The position numbers were made by a program, and so were the translations under genes. A DNA stretch of 37,155 nt from Pseudomonadota bacterium (GTDB lineage Bacteria; Desulfobacterota; S145-22). The DNA lies in NCBI GenBank assembly GCA_015493505.1, contig WGDA01000003.1:1-37155 (forward strand), written 5' to 3'. Shown one piece after another: positions 1,257-23,261 of the stretch; position 1 is the first letter of the stretch, and the number at the start of each line of letters is the position of its first letter. The notes under the pieces were generated by a model, which saw only the letters and a program-made list of their open reading frames with translations, was not told the DNA's origin and did not search any database.

Positions 1257-2468
1257 GTGGCGGGGAGACCCGCGCCGATGGTCCGGATGGGTGAGATGGC
1301 GGATAAAAGCTACGATGTGGTGATTGTGGGGGGCGGCGTCATGGGCTGCGCCTGCGCCTACTTCCTGAAACAGGCGGATGAAACCATCCAGGTGGCAGTA
1401 GTCGAGAAGGACCCCTCATACACCTACGCGTCCAGCACCCTTTCCATGGCAAACGTCCGGATACAGTTCAGCCTGAAGGAAAATATCGAGATTTCCCTGT
1501 ACGCCTTCGAATTTTTTGACCGGTTTCAGGAAGAGATGGCCGTGGACGGAGACGCGCCGGACCTGAGTTTCCAGAGGGAAGGGAATCTTTTTATAGCCGA
1601 TGAGGCAGGGCGTCCCGCTGCCGAAGAGGCGCTGGCGCTTCAGAAATCGCTGGGATGCCGCGTGGACTGGTGGACCCCAGAGGAGATTCGGGCTCACTAC
1701 CCCCTGTATCGCCCGGAAGAATTCGCGGGGGGGACCTTTGGGCCGGATGACGGGTATATCGACGCGTACTCCATGCTCATGGGGTTCAGAAAGAAGGCCA
1801 GGGTTTTAGGCGCGGAGTTTGTCCAGGACGAGGTAACGCAGGTCGAGGTGGATGACCGGCGTGTCGTTGGCGTGCGGCTCGCTTCTGGTGAGCGCCTGCG
1901 GGCGGGCGCCGTGGTCAATTGCGCGGGGGCGTGGGCGGCCGAGGTTGCCTCGACAGCGGGGATACATCTTCCCATTGAACCGGTCAAGCGCCAGATCTAC
2001 GCCCTGAAGACCGGCGTCAAGTTCGACGCGCCGTTGCCCTTGACAGTCCTCCCCTCCGGGCTCTATTTTCGGACGGAAACGGGAAACCTCATTCTGGTGG
2101 GAAAGTCCCTGGATGAGGACCCGGTGGGGTTCGACTTTACCTGGGAGAGAAGACGGTTTGAAAGGCTGCTCTGGCCGGAACTGGCCGACTTTGTTCCCGC
2201 CTTCGACGCGGTCAAAGTGGTTCGGGGATGGGCGGGGCTTTACGCGGTCAACCGGATGGATGACAATGCGGTCCTGGGTGAGTGGCCTGAGGTGAAGGGG
2301 TTTTATCTGGCGAATGGCTTTTCGGGCCACGGCCTGCAACAGGGTCCCGCGGTGGGCCGGTATATCTCTGAATTGATTCTGCAACGGCCGCCCACATTGG
2401 ATCTTTCCATCTTTGGGCCGGAGCGCGTGCTGGAAAACCGTCCGTTGAGCGAAAGCGGGATCGTGTAG
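1257..2468 (+). CDS. FAD-dependent oxidoreductase, DAO/FOXRED1-like
   Basis: This is a 403-residue flavoprotein of the D-amino-acid oxidase/DadA superfamily. The Rossmann motif DVVIVGGGVMGCACAY lies near residue 22, and a C-terminal GFSGHGLQQGPAVG segment is typical of the FAD-binding end of sarcosine dehydrogenase/FOXRED1-like enzymes. Such enzymes oxidise secondary or primary amines of amino acids. I place the start at GTG 1257 because AGGAGG sits at 1243-1248, eight bases upstream; in-frame ATGs at 1278, 1287 and 1296 have no such site. The open frame runs much further upstream, but that part is antisense to ychF. It is the first gene of block A, behind the GntR-type operator and ahead of the 2-oxoacid oxidoreductase genes, which suggests it makes an imine or 2-oxoacid for them. 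The substrate cannot be read from sequence. Confidence 0.85.
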   Translation: MAGRPAPMVRMGEMADKSYDVVIVGGGVMGCACAYFLKQADETIQVAVVEKDPSYTYASSTLSMANVRIQFSLKENIEISLYAFEFFDRFQEEMAVDGDAPDLSFQREGNLFIADEAGRPAAEEALALQKSLGCRVDWWTPEEIRAHYPLYRPEEFAGGTFGPDDGYIDAYSMLMGFRKKARVLGAEFVQDEVTQVEVDDRRVVGVRLASGERLRAGAVVNCAGAWAAEVASTAGIHLPIEPVKRQIYALKTGVKFDAPLPLTVLPSGLYFRTETGNLILVGKSLDEDPVGFDFTWERRRFERLLWPELADFVPAFDAVKVVRGWAGLYAVNRMDDNAVLGEWPEVKGFYLANGFSGHGLQQGPAVGRYISELILQRPPTLDLSIFGPERVLENRPLSESGIV

Positions 2469-2542
2469 GAAATGATGCATTCGCAAGTGATCAAAATTAG
2501 AAGGCAAGGTTTTTTACAGAGCCGTCAAAGGTGAATATAAGA

Positions 2543-3694
2543 ATGTCTGAAGCAACCACCCAACAGGTCACGGCGTCCCTTCCCGAGGGCCGCTATTTTT
2601 TCTCCGGCAACGAGGCGGTGGCGGAGGGGGCGTTATCGGCTGGGTGCCGGTTCTACGGGGGCTATCCCATCACGCCGTCCAGCGAGATTATGGAGCGGAT
2701 GGCGGCGCGCCTTCCGGAGCGAGGGGGCGTGTTCATCCAGATGGAGGATGAGATTGCCTCCATCGCGTCAGTCATCGGTGCCTCCTGGGCGGGTGCCAAG
2801 GCCATGACCGCCACTTCCGGTCCCGGGATCAGCCTCATGCAGGAAGGAATCGGCTACGCCGTTTTTACTGAAACCCCGTGTGTCATTGTGGACATTCAGC
2901 GGGCGGGCCCCTCCACGGGCCAGGCCACCAAGGTGGGCAGCGGGGACATCATGCAGGCCAAGTGGGGGTCTCATGGGGACGCCCTTCCCATCGCCCTGTC
3001 TCCCTGGTCCGTACAGGAGATGTTTGACCTGACTCTCCAGGCGTTTAACCTGGCAGAGCGGTTTCGCGTTCCGGTGTACCTGATGGGGGAGGAGGCCACC
3101 GCCCATCTGCGGGAGGGCATCCGGGTTCCCGAACGGGTGGAGGTGGTTGAACGAAACCGGGGCCCGGGAGACCCCTTTGGCACCGACGAGCCGGACGGCG
3201 TGCCTCCCATGCCGGCCTTTGGGGATGGACAGAAGCTGCTGGTGACCGGCTCCACCCATGACCGGAGGGGGTTTCGCAAAACGGATGATCCGGAGACCCA
3301 TCGGGTTCTCGTGGAGCGGCTTCATAAAAAGATTCTCAATCACGCGGCGGAGATTATCCAGATGGAAGCCTATCACCTTGAGGACGCCCGTGTCGGGATT
3401 GTCGCCTATGGGTTTACCGCCCGCAGCGCCCTGTTCGCGGTGAACAGGCTGCGAAAGGAAGGCTTGCCCGTTGGCCTTCTCCGCCTGAAGACCCTCTGGC
3501 CCTTCCCTTACGAGACTGTCGAGGCCCTGACCGGCTCCCTCGCCCACTGCCTGACCTTCGAAATGAACATGGGGCAGGTCTCCGGAGAGATTCAGAAGGT
3601 CTGCCGGTGCCCGCTGAGTGTGACCACACAGGTCAATGGCACCATCATTTCTCCGCTCACTATCGAGCGGAAGATTCGGGAGGTTTTATCATGA
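2543..3694 (+). CDS. 2-oxoacid:ferredoxin oxidoreductase alpha subunit (KorA-like)
   Basis: This subunit carries the pyrimidine-binding and linker domains of the KorA/VorB family of thiamine-diphosphate 2-oxoacid:ferredoxin oxidoreductases. Family hallmarks are GNEAVAEGALSAGCRFYGGYPITPSSEI near the N-terminus, the QMEDEIASIASVIGASWAGAKAMTATSGPG segment split here as QMEDEIA and TATSGPG, and GPSTGQATKVGSGD. The enzyme decarboxylates a 2-oxoacid to acyl-CoA and reduces ferredoxin in the cytoplasm. ATG 2543 follows an AAGGTG site at good distance; an in-frame GTG at 2531 is the alternative. Its last codons overlap the beta start in an ATGA arrangement, so the subunits are translationally coupled. 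The sequence alone does not separate 2-oxoglutarate from branched-chain or other 2-oxoacids. Confidence 0.9.
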   Translation: MSEATTQQVTASLPEGRYFFSGNEAVAEGALSAGCRFYGGYPITPSSEIMERMAARLPERGGVFIQMEDEIASIASVIGASWAGAKAMTATSGPGISLMQEGIGYAVFTETPCVIVDIQRAGPSTGQATKVGSGDIMQAKWGSHGDALPIALSPWSVQEMFDLTLQAFNLAERFRVPVYLMGEEATAHLREGIRVPERVEVVERNRGPGDPFGTDEPDGVPPMPAFGDGQKLLVTGSTHDRRGFRKTDDPETHRVLVERLHKKILNHAAEIIQMEAYHLEDARVGIVAYGFTARSALFAVNRLRKEGLPVGLLRLKTLWPFPYETVEALTGSLAHCLTFEMNMGQVSGEIQKVCRCPLSVTTQVNGTIISPLTIERKIREVLS

Positions 3695-4443
3695 CCCGGG
3701 CGCTTGAGGGATATATCCGGCCGGAGATTACCGGCACGCCGTTCTGCCCCGGCTGCGGGCATGGCAGCCTTATGGGCACCATCCTGCGGGCCATCGAGGA
3801 CCTCGGCTGGGACATGGACGACATGCTTTTTGTCTCCGGCATCGGGTGCGCCGGCTGGATCCCCAGCCCCCATTTCAATGCCGATACCCTGCATACCCTT
3901 CACGGGCGGGCCATCGCCTTTGCCACGGGCGCGAAGCTGGTTAACCCCGATCTCAGGGTCATGGTCATCGGGGGAGACGGAGACCTCACCTCCATCGGGG
4001 GCAACCACCTGATACACGCCGCCCGCCGGAACATCGACCTGACCGTCATCTGCGCCAACAACATGATTTACGGCATGACGGGAGGCCAGGCGGCATCCAC
4101 GACGCCGGTAGGTTGTTTCAGCTCCACCACCCCTCAGGGGAACCCTTATCCCCCCTTTGATCTCTGCAAGCTCCTGGAGGGGGCCGGCGCCCGTTACGTG
4201 GCACGGTTTGCCATTACCCAGCCCCTGGAGCTCCGGGAGGCCATCAAAAAGGCCCTGACGTTGACCGGTTTTACCTTTGTGGAGGCTGTTTCCCCCTGTC
4301 CCACTCAGTTCGGTCGCCGGAACAGGATCGATCAGGCGACGGGAATGATTCGCTATCTTCAGGAGCACTGCCTGCCGAAGGAAGAGGCGACCGGCAGCGA
4401 GGGGCCTGACAAAATCATCACGGGAGAATTTGTCGGTGCGTGA
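3691..4443 (+). CDS. 2-oxoacid:ferredoxin oxidoreductase beta subunit (KorB-like)
   Basis: This 250-residue subunit binds thiamine diphosphate. It has FCPGCGHGS near residue 18, the metal/ThDP motif GGDGDLTSIGGN and the closing CANN (together GDG-Nx~25-NN). These place it in the KorB/PorB family. It forms the active site together with the alpha subunit encoded directly upstream. The start ATG 3691 overlaps the alpha stop (ATGA), and its own stop overlaps the gamma start. Cysteines in the CPGC motif and later (GIGCAG, PVGCFS) are compatible with the [4Fe-4S] cluster known in this subunit family. The length is slightly short against some KorB proteins (270-290 aa) but all core motifs are present. 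Confidence 0.9.
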   Translation: MTRALEGYIRPEITGTPFCPGCGHGSLMGTILRAIEDLGWDMDDMLFVSGIGCAGWIPSPHFNADTLHTLHGRAIAFATGAKLVNPDLRVMVIGGDGDLTSIGGNHLIHAARRNIDLTVICANNMIYGMTGGQAASTTPVGCFSSTTPQGNPYPPFDLCKLLEGAGARYVARFAITQPLELREAIKKALTLTGFTFVEAVSPCPTQFGRRNRIDQATGMIRYLQEHCLPKEEATGSEGPDKIITGEFVGA

Positions 4444-4984
4444 GATTATTCAGATTCGGTTGGCGGGGTTTGGTGGTCAGGGCGTCGTCCTTGCCGGGAT
4501 GCTGCTGGCCGCGGCGGGGGTCAAAGAGGGCCTGGAAGTGGCGAATTCAAATTCGTACGGGGCCCAGGCGCGGGGAAGCGCCTGCAAGGCGGAAGTGGTT
4601 CTGGGGAAACGCCCCATCATCTTCCCGCATGTTCTGACCTCCGATATCCTCATCGCCTTTTCGCATGAGGCGTATGGCCTCTTCCTGCCAGACATGGCTC
4701 CGGAGGGAACGATCCTGTACGACCCCTATCACGTAAGCCCGGGGGAAACGGGGCACGCCTACGTCGAGGTGCCTGCCACGCAGACGGCCCTGGATACCTT
4801 CGGGACCCCCCAGTCCGCCAACATCGTCATGCTGGGCGCCCTGACGGAACTGCCGGAGACCATCTCCGGGAAGAGCATGACCGAAGCCGTTCGCGAGAAC
4901 TCCCCCCGCCGGTTTCTGGAGGCCAACCTGAAGGCCCTGGCGCTTGGCATTGCCCTGATGAAAAACCGGAAAGGAAGTGACTGA
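4436..4984 (+). CDS. 2-oxoacid:ferredoxin oxidoreductase gamma subunit (KorC-like)
   Basis: The 182-residue product has the gamma-domain signature IRLAGFGGQGVVLAG at the N-terminus, then NSNSYGAQARGSACKAEVVL, typical of KorC/PorG subunits that complete the CoA-binding part of the complex. I prefer GTG 4436, because GGGAG at 4422-4426 sits about nine bases upstream; an in-frame TTG at 4430 would be too close to that site. The gene overlaps the end of the beta gene by eight bases and its TGA overlaps the next ATG (TGATG), so alpha, beta, gamma and the GltD-like gene form one coupled unit. Confidence 0.88.
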   Translation: MREIIQIRLAGFGGQGVVLAGMLLAAAGVKEGLEVANSNSYGAQARGSACKAEVVLGKRPIIFPHVLTSDILIAFSHEAYGLFLPDMAPEGTILYDPYHVSPGETGHAYVEVPATQTALDTFGTPQSANIVMLGALTELPETISGKSMTEAVRENSPRRFLEANLKALALGIALMKNRKGSD

Positions 4985-17708: not shown

Positions 17709-19841
17709 TCAGGCGTTTTTCAAAACCTCCAGAACCTCCGGGAAATCGATACCGAGGCGTTTTACCGTTTCCACGGTGGGGATTCCATCCTTCGTCCAGC
17801 CACGGCGGCTGTACACGGCGTCCTTGAGCCTTTCGTACCTCTCCTCGCGGAATTTTCTGAGGAGCTTCAGCTTTTCTTCCGTGGACATGCCGTCGATATC
17901 CACGTGGTGCTCATCCCGCAACTGGCTGTCGTAACGTTCCCGCCGAGATTCGTATTCCTCCACCGTGACGGGTCCCACCGCGCGATAGGGGATGTCGTCA
18001 TGTTCCCGACGTCCGAACCCCATCCGGAGGTTGAAGATTCTCTGGAAGTTGTAAACCCCTTCGCTCATGCGGATCAAGTCGTCTCCCGTAACCTTCCGTC
18101 CCGTGACAGCGCTGAAAAACTGGGCGTACCAGTTCACATGTTTCATTACCTTTGCCGGTTCTTCCGTTTGATCGTTGTCCTCCGGGACGATATCATTCCA
18201 CGGGAGTTTGCACAGCCCGCACAGCCCGAACCAGGTGCGGAACATGGGGAACCAGTGTAGCGCCTCCGCCTTCTGCTCAAAGGTCGGCATCAGGTTTTCC
18301 ACCATGTCGAGGAAGATGAGCCATGCCTCGTCGTGCTGGGGGCCCTTGAGTGCCAGGCCATACCCTCCCTGCTGCGCCAGGGATTCCTTCGTCACGTACT
18401 CGGAGAACTCGAGGCCCTTGGCCTCCATGCCGATATCCTTCATGACAGCCGTGTCAGCCCCGAAGTCCCTGCTAAAGGTTTCCTTCATTCGCCGGATCCC
18501 CTGCCCGACAATTTTCCCGAATCCCCGTCCCTCGGCCATTTGATGGACAAGCTCCAGGGCGCTGGCGCGGTTGCCGAAGGAGAGGTCCAGCCCTCCCGTG
18601 TGGGAGGCATTGATGAGGCCCCGTTCGAAGCATTCCATGACGAAGGCGATTCCTGTTCCCACCGAGATGGTGTCCAGCCCATAGGTGTCGCAGTAGAAAT
18701 TCATCTCCAGCACGGTGTGGGGATCGAAGATACCGAGATTCGAGCCGCACCCTGCCAGAGTTTCGTACTCCGGGCCATCCACGAAGACCTTTTTCCCCTT
18801 GTAAGGGCCGGTCAGAGGGATGAATTCCCGCACGCAGTGGGCGCAGGATACCGTACACCCCACCCAGCAGCCGTCAAAGCCCGGGTCGAACAGCCGCTTG
18901 AAGACTTCGTGCCCGATGTTCAGGGCCTCGGGGTGGCTGCCATACTGGTAGTTCTTGGTCGGAAGCAGGTCGAATTCGTTCATGATGTCCACCAGGTGCG
19001 CCGTGCCGACGATGGCCATCTCGTTCTGCTTGGAATCAAGGGCCACGATCTCCTTCGAGTGTTCCCGGGCGACCTCTTTCAGGAGAGACGGATCCGCGGG
19101 CTTGTTCAATTCCATCGTAACTGTGTCCCAGCGCGCCACGATGGCCTTCAGCCCCTTATGGGCAAACACGGTCCCCACGCCACCCCGCGCCGCCTGTTTG
19201 TATCGCGCCTTTTTGCGTTTCGGGTCGTACCAGGAGAAATTGAGAATTCCAATTCGGGTATTTTTGGCGCCCGGACCCGAGGAAACCACCGAAATACTCT
19301 TCGGGTTGCCCTGGCCAAAATAGGCCGTCAGGGTCTCCGTTATCTCCTCGGAATAGTCCGACAATCCCTTCATCTCGAGGAGTTCGATTTTCTCTTCCAC
19401 GCCGTCGATTAAAAGAACCATATCCCCGCCGGCCGCCTTCCCCTGAACCTCCAGGCCGTCAAAGCCGCAGAATTTCAGATAAGGCCCGAAGTATCCTCCC
19501 ACATTGGAATCCATCACGCTTCCCGTGGTGGGTGAGATGGTGGTGACGATGCTCTTGCCCGCCCCAGGATAGCCCGGGGTTCCACCCAGGGGGCCGGCGG
19601 AGATACAGATTTCGTTTTCCGGGTCGTCCCATTTGGTGTTTCCGTTGACCGCCTGCCACAGGAGCCACAGGTCAAACCCTTTTCCCCCCACGAAGACCTC
19701 TTTCATTTTATCCGTGACCGGTTTGATGGTGATCTCGGGCCGGGAGAGTTCCACGTGCAGGGTCTGGTTGGCGTAGCCCTTTTCAACAACGGGGCGCTGA
19801 TAGGGCGTGCTCATGATGGTTTTTGTTTCGAGTTGTGTCAT
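17709..19841 (-). CDS. Aldehyde:ferredoxin oxidoreductase family protein (tungsten/molybdopterin)
   Basis: The 710-residue protein belongs to the AOR family: N-terminal VFVGGKGFDLWLLW and SAGPLGGTPGYPGAGKS (cofactor-binding domain), ARGGVGTVFAHKGLKAI, then a Cys-rich segment CWVGCTVSCAHC (about residues 324-335) and a late LCGLC (about 540-544). These would hold a [4Fe-4S] cluster near a tungstopterin. Family enzymes oxidise aldehydes to acids with ferredoxin; BamB of benzoyl-CoA reductase is a relative with another role. The Cys spacing (x3, x3, x2) is not the usual C-x2-C-x3-C. GGAGGA precedes ATG 19841. It is a single-gene unit with its own promoter, and could deal with aldehydes from 2-oxoacid metabolism next door. 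Confidence 0.9.
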   Translation of the reverse strand: MTQLETKTIMSTPYQRPVVEKGYANQTLHVELSRPEITIKPVTDKMKEVFVGGKGFDLWLLWQAVNGNTKWDDPENEICISAGPLGGTPGYPGAGKSIVTTISPTTGSVMDSNVGGYFGPYLKFCGFDGLEVQGKAAGGDMVLLIDGVEEKIELLEMKGLSDYSEEITETLTAYFGQGNPKSISVVSSGPGAKNTRIGILNFSWYDPKRKKARYKQAARGGVGTVFAHKGLKAIVARWDTVTMELNKPADPSLLKEVAREHSKEIVALDSKQNEMAIVGTAHLVDIMNEFDLLPTKNYQYGSHPEALNIGHEVFKRLFDPGFDGCWVGCTVSCAHCVREFIPLTGPYKGKKVFVDGPEYETLAGCGSNLGIFDPHTVLEMNFYCDTYGLDTISVGTGIAFVMECFERGLINASHTGGLDLSFGNRASALELVHQMAEGRGFGKIVGQGIRRMKETFSRDFGADTAVMKDIGMEAKGLEFSEYVTKESLAQQGGYGLALKGPQHDEAWLIFLDMVENLMPTFEQKAEALHWFPMFRTWFGLCGLCKLPWNDIVPEDNDQTEEPAKVMKHVNWYAQFFSAVTGRKVTGDDLIRMSEGVYNFQRIFNLRMGFGRREHDDIPYRAVGPVTVEEYESRRERYDSQLRDEHHVDIDGMSTEEKLKLLRKFREERYERLKDAVYSRRGWTKDGIPTVETVKRLGIDFPEVLEVLKNA

Positions 19842-19961: not shown

Positions 19962-19994
19962 AAAAAAAGCGGGGCTCACACGAGCCCCGCTTTT
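19962..19994 (-). terminator. Intrinsic terminator of the mtrA-mtrB unit
   Basis: GCGGGGCTC (19969-19977) pairs with GAGCCCCGC (19982-19990) over a 4-base loop. On the minus strand it is followed by seven T (19968-19962). It lies 22 bases after the barrel gene's stop and can also act on the plus strand (TTTT at 19991-19994). Confidence 0.9.
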
Positions 19995-20015: not shown

Positions 20016-22196
20016 CTAAAAGGTGTAGTTCAGTCCTACGTTGAAGACCCACAGTTCGCCGTCCGCGTCATAGAGATACGGTTCGTCGTCCGTGTACTTC
20101 CGGTAGGTGACCACACCCGCCAGTTCCAGGGCCTTGTAGAGCTGCACATTGCAACCGAGGGAACAGTCGAACCGGCTCTGGTCCAGATCGGAGTAGTCGT
20201 CAAATCCAGAGTAATCCAACGTATAAGCGACACTCCACACTGGGGAGGGATCGTTCCACGTGGTAAAACCGGCAGGGGGTCCAGAGAAATGGACCGCATT
20301 GAAATCTGCCTTCGACTTGGTGTACGAGGCGTCGAGATTCAGGCTCACACGCTTTGTCGGGGTGAACAGAGCGGAGGCATACAGGACATGGTTTCTGATT
20401 TTGTAATCTTCATCGCTGCTCATGGAGCCAACCTGGCTCACCATACCCTGGCCCCCTCACCCGGAAAAGAGGTCAGTACAGAAATAGGTTTCATACTTCT
20501 CGTACTGATAATTGTACCCCAGCGAGAAACTCAGCTTCTGCATCGGCATGAACCAGAAGTTGATCCCCGCCATATAGGTGTGAGATTTCCAGTCTGAGTG
20601 GTCGTTTTTCTGGTACTGGTACTGGAAGATCCCGTTGAGAGACGTGTTCGTCTTTGGCATGTAGGTGGCCGTCATCTTGATGTCGTGAGACCATTCCGGC
20701 ATGTTGGAGCGGTCCCTCATGCGGTTTGCCTCGGTGAACACGTTTGAATAGGCCGTTGTGGCAATGCCAAGATCTTCCACGCGCTGACACGACCCCGCCA
20801 CATTGGTAAAGGGGTTGTCGATGTTCTTGTAGGTATATCCAACCCGGTATTTGAACTTCGTGTTGGGATGCCCGTTGACCGCCAGCTTAAAGGTATGGGT
20901 TTTCGTATCCTTGTCGGAGTGGGTGACATAGTAGTTGTCCCGATCCGTGTCGTCGAACTGGTACCCCGCGCGAATGGTGGTGCACCGGTTCAGACGGTAG
21001 GACGCGTCCAGGTTTCCCGTGAATTCATCCCGGTCGATGGCGGATTTCCGTGTAAAGCTGTAATCGGTCGCATTGCTGTAGGCGGGATCGTGCGGGTTGA
21101 AGTGATTGGTCACCGTGATGTGGGCGTCGTCACTGCTGATATCAAGGTAACGCCCCCGCGCCGATACCGTCAGGCGATGATCCATGAAGTCCTTCGTCAG
21201 TCGCAGGTTATAGGCCTGCTGATCCACGTCCAGATCATTGTAATCGTCCTCCATCGTGGAATAGACGAAAGAGCCATAGGCTGATGTCTGGGCGGGAAGG
21301 TCCGCGTGCATCTTGACCAGATGGGTCTTCTTGGAGGAATCGGGAATCAGGTTCCGGATCCCGTCAGCATTAACGATACTCAAACGTCCCGCGAAAACAG
21401 GCGTGTGCCCACCGGCTTTGACATCGTCGTAATGAATCATCTTTGTCGAGGCGTTGTTGTTGAACTCCCGGTCCGTGTAGGTGTAATCGATGGTGACAAC
21501 CCCCACGTTGACCGTGGCGCCCACGGAAAGGTCATCGGTGGACTGGTCGATGTGGTTGCCGTAGCCCACAACGTGGCATGGCGTGCACTTGCCGACCATC
21601 ACGGTTCCCTGTTTCCAGCCGTGCCGCTCTTCGTTCCGCCAGCCGGCGTGAAAGGTCAGGGCGGGGAAGGACGGCACCGTCACCTTGACGTGCATATTGG
21701 TCAATTGTCGGTAGATCTGGTAATTTCTACCAGGCTCCTGGTCTGTGAAACCCCAGGCCTGGACCCCCTCAAAATGACCTGTTGATGAATAGATGGGGTT
21801 GACAACCTTGTGTCCCGGTATCGAATCGTAAAACAGGGGATCGTGCCGGGTCCGGTGGATGAACTTGCTATAGTTCATCTTGAACCGGAAGACCCGGTTC
21901 AAATCCAGGTCCATCTTTCCCGCGTTGTCATCCTGAGTGGTGTAACGTCCGTTGACGCTGATAAAGTTTTTGCCGAATGATCCCACGTAATCAAACAAGC
22001 CCGTGGGGCTGCCGCCCGTGTCTTCATATTCGGCGACCTTGTTTTTGCTGTCATTTGTGCTGGTGCTGTAAAACCCAGCGCCCACTTTCAACCGGTAGGC
22101 CTTCTCCGCCTTTTGATCGCCGGCGAAGGCAGACCCCAGGGAAAGGGCGCAGATAAATACAGCGGCAACCAGCAGGATCAGGGTTGATCGTCTCAT
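20016..22196 (-). CDS. MtrB/PioB-type outer-membrane beta-barrel protein with in-frame UGA (possible selenoprotein or interrupted gene)
   Basis: From ATG 22196 (GGAGGA upstream) the product has a signal peptide ending near GSAFAGD (residue 26). A long alternating beta-strand protein follows, matching the decaheme-associated MtrB/PioB barrel family that houses an MtrA-type cytochrome in the outer membrane. A lone heme motif CTPCH lies at 204-208. Codon 580 (20459-20457) is TGA. The same frame then continues for 146 codons with barrel strands and ends in VFNVGLNYTF, a terminal-Phe strand as expected for outer-membrane insertion. The total of 726 codons fits the family; stopping at 579 would lose the last strands. 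A hairpin resembling a bacterial SECIS follows the TGA, and Cys573 precedes it. Alternatives are a nonsense mutation, a sequencing error, or restart at ATG 20444. Confidence 0.8.
20422..20459 (-). promoter_or_regulatory. UGA codon with candidate SECIS hairpin
   Basis: After the UGA (20459-20457), 22 bases lead to loop AGGUU (20434-20430). The loop is closed by GAGCC (20439-20435) pairing with GGCUC (20429-20425). Below a 2-base GU bulge, AUG (20444-20442) pairs with CAU (20424-20422). A G in the first two loop bases, a GGU in the loop, a bulged U on the 5' side and a loop 16-37 bases from the UGA agree with the general bacterial SECIS model and with the AGGUCU loop of E. coli fdhF. The upper stem is longer than in fdhF. 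Function is inferred only. Confidence 0.45.
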
Positions 22197-22271: not shown

Positions 22272-23261
22272 TTACCGCGTTAAACCTTTCCCTTGTCCCG
22301 GCACGGAAAGTGACGGCAGGTCAGACCCGTGGATCTGGCTGTGGCACTGCGTGCATCGGGTGCCCATCGCCATCTGAGACCCGTGCGGGTTCGGGATCAT
22401 CCTGTTCTGGCCATTGACCGGTGAGTAGAACACCGTGTGGAAATGCAGATGGTGGCACTGCAGGCACAGGAACGGCTCGTTCTGCTTCAGCAGGTTGTCC
22501 GCCACGGTTCCATGGGGATCGTGACAGATGGTGCAGTCTTCCTCTACCGGCGGGTGCTGGTAGGTGTACGGCCCCTGCTTGTCCGCGTGGCATTTCAGGC
22601 AAAGGTCGCGCGTCCGCTCTTCTGTCTTCAGGTTGTTGACACTGGTGCCGTGCATGTTATGGCAGTCCGTGCATTTCATCTTGCCTTCCCGGATCGGGTG
22701 GTGAGAGGGATAATTCACCTTCGCCCGGATATCCTGATGGCACTGATAACAGAGCTGCGGTTCCGGCATTTTCAGGGTTCCCTTGGCGGGATCCTGATGA
22801 ATCTTGTGACAATCAATACAGGTCACATCGTTGAGGGCGTGTTCGTTGCCGCGCCAGTCCATCCCGGCATCCTTGGCGTGGCACCGCAGGCAGATGGCCG
22901 AAGCCTCTCCCGGCGTGATGCCACCCGGTTTCCCCACATTGGTGAAACGGATGATCTTTGTGGTATCTCCGTCATTTTCAATGTGGACGCTTCCGGGTCC
23001 ATGGCAGGACTCACAGCCTTTATGCCCTTTGACCTCGAAATCGGCCAACCTGCCGTGAATCGTTCCCTTGAACTGGTTCACGAGGTCTTCATGGCAGTCG
23101 GCACAGGCCTCAGTCCCCTCATACGTTGCTCCCTTGATTGCCACAGGCATCTTAATCATCGCCTTGCTCTTCCCTTTCATGGAAGCGCAAGTCCCCATGA
23201 CCATCGCCACCGATATGATCAGGGCGAGTATCATGAGGGTCTGAATGGTCCTTCGTTTCAT
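22272..23261 (-). CDS. Decaheme c-type cytochrome, DmsE/MtrA family
   Basis: The 329-residue product has an N-terminal hydrophobic export segment (about residues 6-24) and ten CXXCH motifs, starting at about residues 53, 83, 124, 148, 171, 197, 221, 243, 266 and 303. The GTEACADCHEDLVNQFKGTIHG start and GCESCHGPGSVH are typical of DmsE/MtrA/PioA periplasmic decahemes. Such proteins form a wire inside an MtrB-type barrel and carry electrons across the outer membrane. GGAGG precedes the ATG. The barrel gene follows after 75 bases in the same direction. No extracellular MtrC/OmcA-type cytochrome is seen in the window, so the terminal partner lies elsewhere or is not needed. A Cys at residue 25 (GTCAS) is a poor lipobox match. 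Confidence 0.93.
   Translation of the reverse strand: MKRRTIQTLMILALIISVAMVMGTCASMKGKSKAMIKMPVAIKGATYEGTEACADCHEDLVNQFKGTIHGRLADFEVKGHKGCESCHGPGSVHIENDGDTTKIIRFTNVGKPGGITPGEASAICLRCHAKDAGMDWRGNEHALNDVTCIDCHKIHQDPAKGTLKMPEPQLCYQCHQDIRAKVNYPSHHPIREGKMKCTDCHNMHGTSVNNLKTEERTRDLCLKCHADKQGPYTYQHPPVEEDCTICHDPHGTVADNLLKQNEPFLCLQCHHLHFHTVFYSPVNGQNRMIPNPHGSQMAMGTRCTQCHSQIHGSDLPSLSVPGQGKGLTR

Follow-up and report, generated by a model that had tools for sequence, protein, structure and literature searches.

A probable selenocysteine in an OmcL-like MtrB/PioB outer-membrane barrel of Desulfobacterota

The closest described counterparts of the locus analysed here are the MtrAB proteins of Shewanella (6r2q) and the GSU2203/GSU2204 proteins of Geobacter, the counterparts of OmcK and OmcL. 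To our knowledge, no selenocysteine (Sec) is known in MtrB. When Geobacter is cultured with the iron oxides hematite and magnetite, GSU2203 and GSU2204 are up-regulated (PMC4070692). OmcKL, which belongs to the same cytochrome and porin families as the pair described below, is proposed to act in extracellular electron transfer, as a porin:cytochrome outer-membrane conduit in the sulfate-reducing partners of methane-oxidising archaea such as HotSeep-1 SRB (PMC10553843). That work does not mention Sec, whereas the barrel of our locus most probably contains it.

MtrB/PioB barrels have nevertheless been listed as a selenoprotein family, in a 2022 review (PMC9312934) and again in a 2026 review (PMC13188914) which gives Zhang and Gladyshev 2008 as source. 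As far as the accessible text of the two reviews goes, the listed family and our protein share the family name, PF11854, NF041027 and a single Sec per protein, and neither a redox motif nor a function is given there. We found no mention of the MtrB/PioB family in the accessible main text of Zhang and Gladyshev 2008 (PMC2398784). The preceding examination of this DNA, hereafter the sequence-only reading, suggested that no selenoprotein had been described in the family; NF041027 and both reviews contradict it on this point. The selenoprotein finding is sound but already known.

The NCBIfam model NF041027, ‘GSU2204 family CXXCH-containing (seleno)protein’, is matched by the barrel protein with 535 bits (cut-off 350) over profile positions 3-580 of 580, and by all members of a 23-sequence alignment. 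Between this family and our protein there is no material difference, an internal CXXCH and the family of the upstream partner being shared. The last position of the model corresponds to the residue just before Sec. It therefore represents only the part of the protein before Sec, whereas ours continues for 146 residues after it.

The window, i.e. the whole stretch of 37,155 nucleotides that was analysed, includes the following features:

22272-23261, minus strand: gene of a decaheme c-type cytochrome, MtrA/DmsE-like, GSU2203 (OmcK) family (NF041028, TIGR03508), directly upstream of the barrel gene
20016-22196, minus strand: barrel gene of MtrB/PioB type (PF11854; NF041027; OmcL-like), 726 residues with Sec580, from ATG 22196 to TAG 20018-20016
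21573-21587, minus strand: CXXCH (CTPCH, residues 204-208), heme-c attachment motif within the barrel, invariant in 23/23 aligned sequences
20478-20480, minus strand: Cys573, seven residues before Sec580
20457-20459, minus strand: in-frame UGA, codon 580, in all probability read as selenocysteine
20422-20444, minus strand: hairpin core with lower stem AUG/CAU and a two-base bulge (GU), in this copy and close relatives, not conserved in distant ones
20425-20439, minus strand: core of the candidate SECIS hairpin, 5-bp stem GAGCC/GGCUC with loop AGGUU (20434-20430), +18 to +32 after the UGA, compensatory changes in 4/5 pairs
19962-19994, no strand assigned: inverted repeat, rich in GC and bordered by runs of A and T, recognised in the sequence itself and not in the pattern-scan list

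The barrel frame runs for 579 codons from ATG 22196 to the UGA; another 146 codons follow in the same frame, the last of them for Phe, before the TAG, so that the coordinates and frame given by the sequence-only reading are correct. The protein matches Pfam PF11854 (MtrB_PioB) with an E value of 2.6e-15 (56.5 bits, cut-off 23). It stays far below the cut-off of the MtrB/PioB subfamily model TIGR03509 (19.6 bits vs 240) and is 13% identical to Shewanella MtrB. The AlphaFold2 model of the read-through product displays long strands throughout (mean pLDDT 74, pTM 0.70), 26 by our count, and its best match among solved structures is MtrB (6r2q_B, E 2.1e-22, TM 0.64/0.71). A product ending at UGA580 would lack the last five strands as well as the terminal Phe.

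The cytochrome encoded directly upstream reaches 447 bits with NF041028 (cut-off 325) and 257 bits with TIGR03508, and its top match among sequences of solved structures is chain A of the Mtr complex (6r2q_A). A gene with ten CXXCH motifs occupies this position in nearly every relative examined, being partial at some cut-short loci. An MtrB-fold barrel is hence paired with an MtrA-like decaheme cytochrome, the arrangement that defines a porin:cytochrome conduit. By their resemblance to MtrA-MtrB, the two proteins probably make up a conduit that takes electrons across the outer membrane. On the other side of the barrel gene, an aldehyde:ferredoxin oxidoreductase-type gene (17709-19841, minus strand) lies downstream behind the inverted repeat listed above, which is likely a bidirectional terminator between the two genes.

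A search of 198 relatives revealed exactly one in-frame TGA in nearly every full-length homologue. Among 48 aligned relatives or fragments of the phylum, the Sec column holds UGA in 37 and Cys in two (L011, L084), the pattern that the sequence-only reading had anticipated for homologues at codon 580; the remaining sequences are divergent members with another residue, or fragments with a gap there. The UGA column is shared by relatives down to about 26% identity, in the family context (Y/F)xGU(A/G), and the same UGA is present in an 84%-identical relative from an independent assembly. Measured against that relative, dN/dS is about 0.04 after the UGA (dN 0.033, dS 0.76) vs about 0.11 before it (dN 0.10, dS 0.91), indicating that the post-UGA part of the barrel is under the stronger purifying selection. 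A few close homologues (L024, L030) have Leu or Ser in place of Sec.

Several members of the family deserve separate description. L011 (G050:C87) has Cys at the Sec column and, in a column of otherwise conserved Arg, a stray in-frame UGA, and for this reason was left out of the Sec count; the gene is probably damaged or affected by an assembly error. At L092 (G003:C34:13000-18500), the contig carries a Sec-less homologue with Ser (L030) and, after it, a fragment of a broken copy that contains Sec. A shorter, divergent branch of about 615 residues (L091, L093, L094, L097) has kept CXXCH but lacks both Sec and Cys in the column; the heme motif is thus independent of Sec. Finally, the genome of our locus carries a second copy of the family (L096, contig C56, about 2325-4940), in which the Sec column likewise holds a single UGA (FNGUAGS). 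A decaheme cytochrome gene lies upstream of this copy as well, and the residue seven positions before Sec is Trp rather than Cys.

The hairpin GAGCC-AGGUU-GGCUC starts 17 nt after the UGA with its loop 22 nt away, exactly where the sequence-only reading had placed it. Relatives carry stem variants such as GAACC/GGUUC, GACCC/GGGUC and GCCCC/GGGGC, and the second base of the five-base loop is always G. In the stem, 96% of alignment cells are paired, vs 25-55% when the columns are slid by 1 or 2 and 19-27% when slid by 3, a control which keeps the relatedness of the sequences. The covariation score is 0.64 vs 0.18 in shuffles, which ignore this relatedness. For four relatives (L019, L020, L022, L029) the register had to be moved by 1 nt to align the hairpin; with these left out, pairing in the other 17 sequences still reaches 98% of cells at an unchanged position.

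The hairpin also agrees, with its 22 nt spacing and its AGGUU loop, with the bacterial SECIS rule as worded in the accessible text of a recent review, i.e. a spacing of 16-37 nt and a loop of 3-9 nt with G in the first two bases (PMC13188914). Of all TGA trinucleotides in the window, 38% pass a loose bacterial SECIS rule, so that such agreement says little by itself and was dropped as evidence; the exact hairpin geometry is found after 0.3% of them. Thus, of the SECIS-like features first put forward, the spacing and the loop G hold while their weight as an argument does not. Similarly, the 5′ bulge with U fits the predicted fold of this copy, but most relatives have C at the U position. Single-sequence folding gives a z of about -1.4, not markedly stabler than shuffles, and for a 45-nt segment a different fold is predicted; an Rfam scan of the window returned a tRNA and no further match. 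It is covariation across relatives that makes the candidate SECIS convincing.

The genome possesses the whole set of selA, selB, selC and selD on which the sequence-only reading had let its proposal depend, in the form of SelA, SelB, SelD and a tRNA-Sec with anticodon TCA. Its SelD (L054, contig C104:8988-9914) carries an in-frame UGA and is likely a selenoprotein itself, as is common for SelD. SelB scores above cut-off in 23 of the 27 genomes with a barrel homologue and was not found at this level in the four others, the UGA-bearing G001 and G003 as well as G037 and G038. G001 and G003 are fragmented assemblies: in the former SelB appears split over contigs and SelA was not found, in the latter SelA and SelD are present and SelB is not above cut-off. 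G037 and G038 yielded only stop-free matches; G038, whose homologue is devoid of UGA, has neither SelA nor SelB above cut-off. UGA also serves as an ordinary stop, as the sequence-only reading had noted: it ends 11 of the 27 window genes checked, and in L012-L014 it is used both for Sec and as the final stop within one gene. UGA is therefore not generally reassigned.

Taken together, column conservation, selection, SECIS covariation and machinery lead us to consider that UGA580 is decoded as Sec. On this comparative basis, the probability that the product of the barrel gene is a GSU2204-family (OmcL-like) selenoprotein is about 0.96. The core of the sequence-only reading, Sec at UGA580 of an MtrB/PioB barrel via a SECIS hairpin, is thus borne out by the machinery, the UGA/Cys column and the 84%-identical assembly. 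In the proposed mechanism, SelB with Sec-tRNA(UCA) would bind the hairpin, 17 nt downstream of UGA580, and insert selenocysteine; failing SelB/Sec-tRNA at the hairpin, translation would end before the last five strands. The resulting 26-strand barrel would pair with the upstream MtrA-like decaheme cytochrome, and electrons would cross the outer membrane.

Could UGA580 instead be a true stop, created by a nonsense mutation, in a pseudogene or by a sequencing error, and leaving a truncated barrel? UGA is a common stop in the window, and the stray UGA of L011, at an otherwise conserved Arg, shows that accidents of this kind happen, yet 37 relatives, some with as little as about 26% identity, hold UGA in the same column, purifying selection persists beyond it, the SECIS covaries, and five strands with the terminal Phe would be lost. 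This makes a true stop very improbable. We give even less credit to a two-part product, in which translation would stop at the UGA and restart at ATG 20444, the two polypeptides then assembling. A purine-rich stretch does lie upstream of this ATG, and the sequence-only reading had kept the restart as a possibility, but Met is present in L003-L005 whereas most other relatives have Phe, His, Trp or another residue at this position. Moreover, the second polypeptide, 142 residues long, would be devoid of a signal peptide, and re-initiation accounts neither for the hairpin and the invariant G of its loop nor for the Cys replacements.

Decoding of UGA580 as Trp or a near-cognate residue, by readthrough that dispenses with the Sec machinery, is hardly credible either, since no relative has Trp in the column, L011 and L084 have Cys there in an otherwise similar context, and the full Sec machinery is found together with a covarying SECIS. 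A different kind of alternative accepts Sec and assigns it another role, in which it would not relay electrons but form a selenenylsulfide with Cys573 as a redox switch. The residue is Cys in 26/37 Sec relatives, in line with the pairing proposed by the sequence-only reading, but Ser in 8/37 and Trp in 3/37. With Ser or Trp in 11 of 37, the partner is not conserved and the switch cannot be general for the family; we regard it as unlikely, and the Cys573-Sec580 bond would be lineage-specific at best.

A role of Sec580 as an electron relay, if real, would be exerted near the CXXCH, a motif that all relatives with sequence extending that far possess. By strand order, and assuming a periplasmic N-terminus, the model places the Sec loop (576-588) and the CXXCH loop (202-207) on the same, outer side of the barrel, with pLDDT below 50 at the predicted loop positions of both Sec and CXXCH. 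Sec580 could possibly, then, be an outer-face redox relay or a metal/heme contact near CXXCH, where electrons leave or enter; we put this forward tentatively. That Sec580 and a heme on the barrel's own CXXCH would together constitute a site of redox activity where the conduit opens to the outside is a rather speculative extension; in that case the barrel itself, besides the cytochrome threaded through it, would carry electrons or reduce an external acceptor such as a metal or selenium oxyanion.

The 37 Sec and 2 Cys relatives, together with the covarying SECIS, provide firm comparative support for recoding in this lineage. Uncultured assemblies are included, in which the annotation is likely to show the barrel gene cut short or split into two ORFs. 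The occurrence of a conserved Sec and a heme-binding motif in a presumed conduit barrel suggests that the barrel has a part in redox chemistry.
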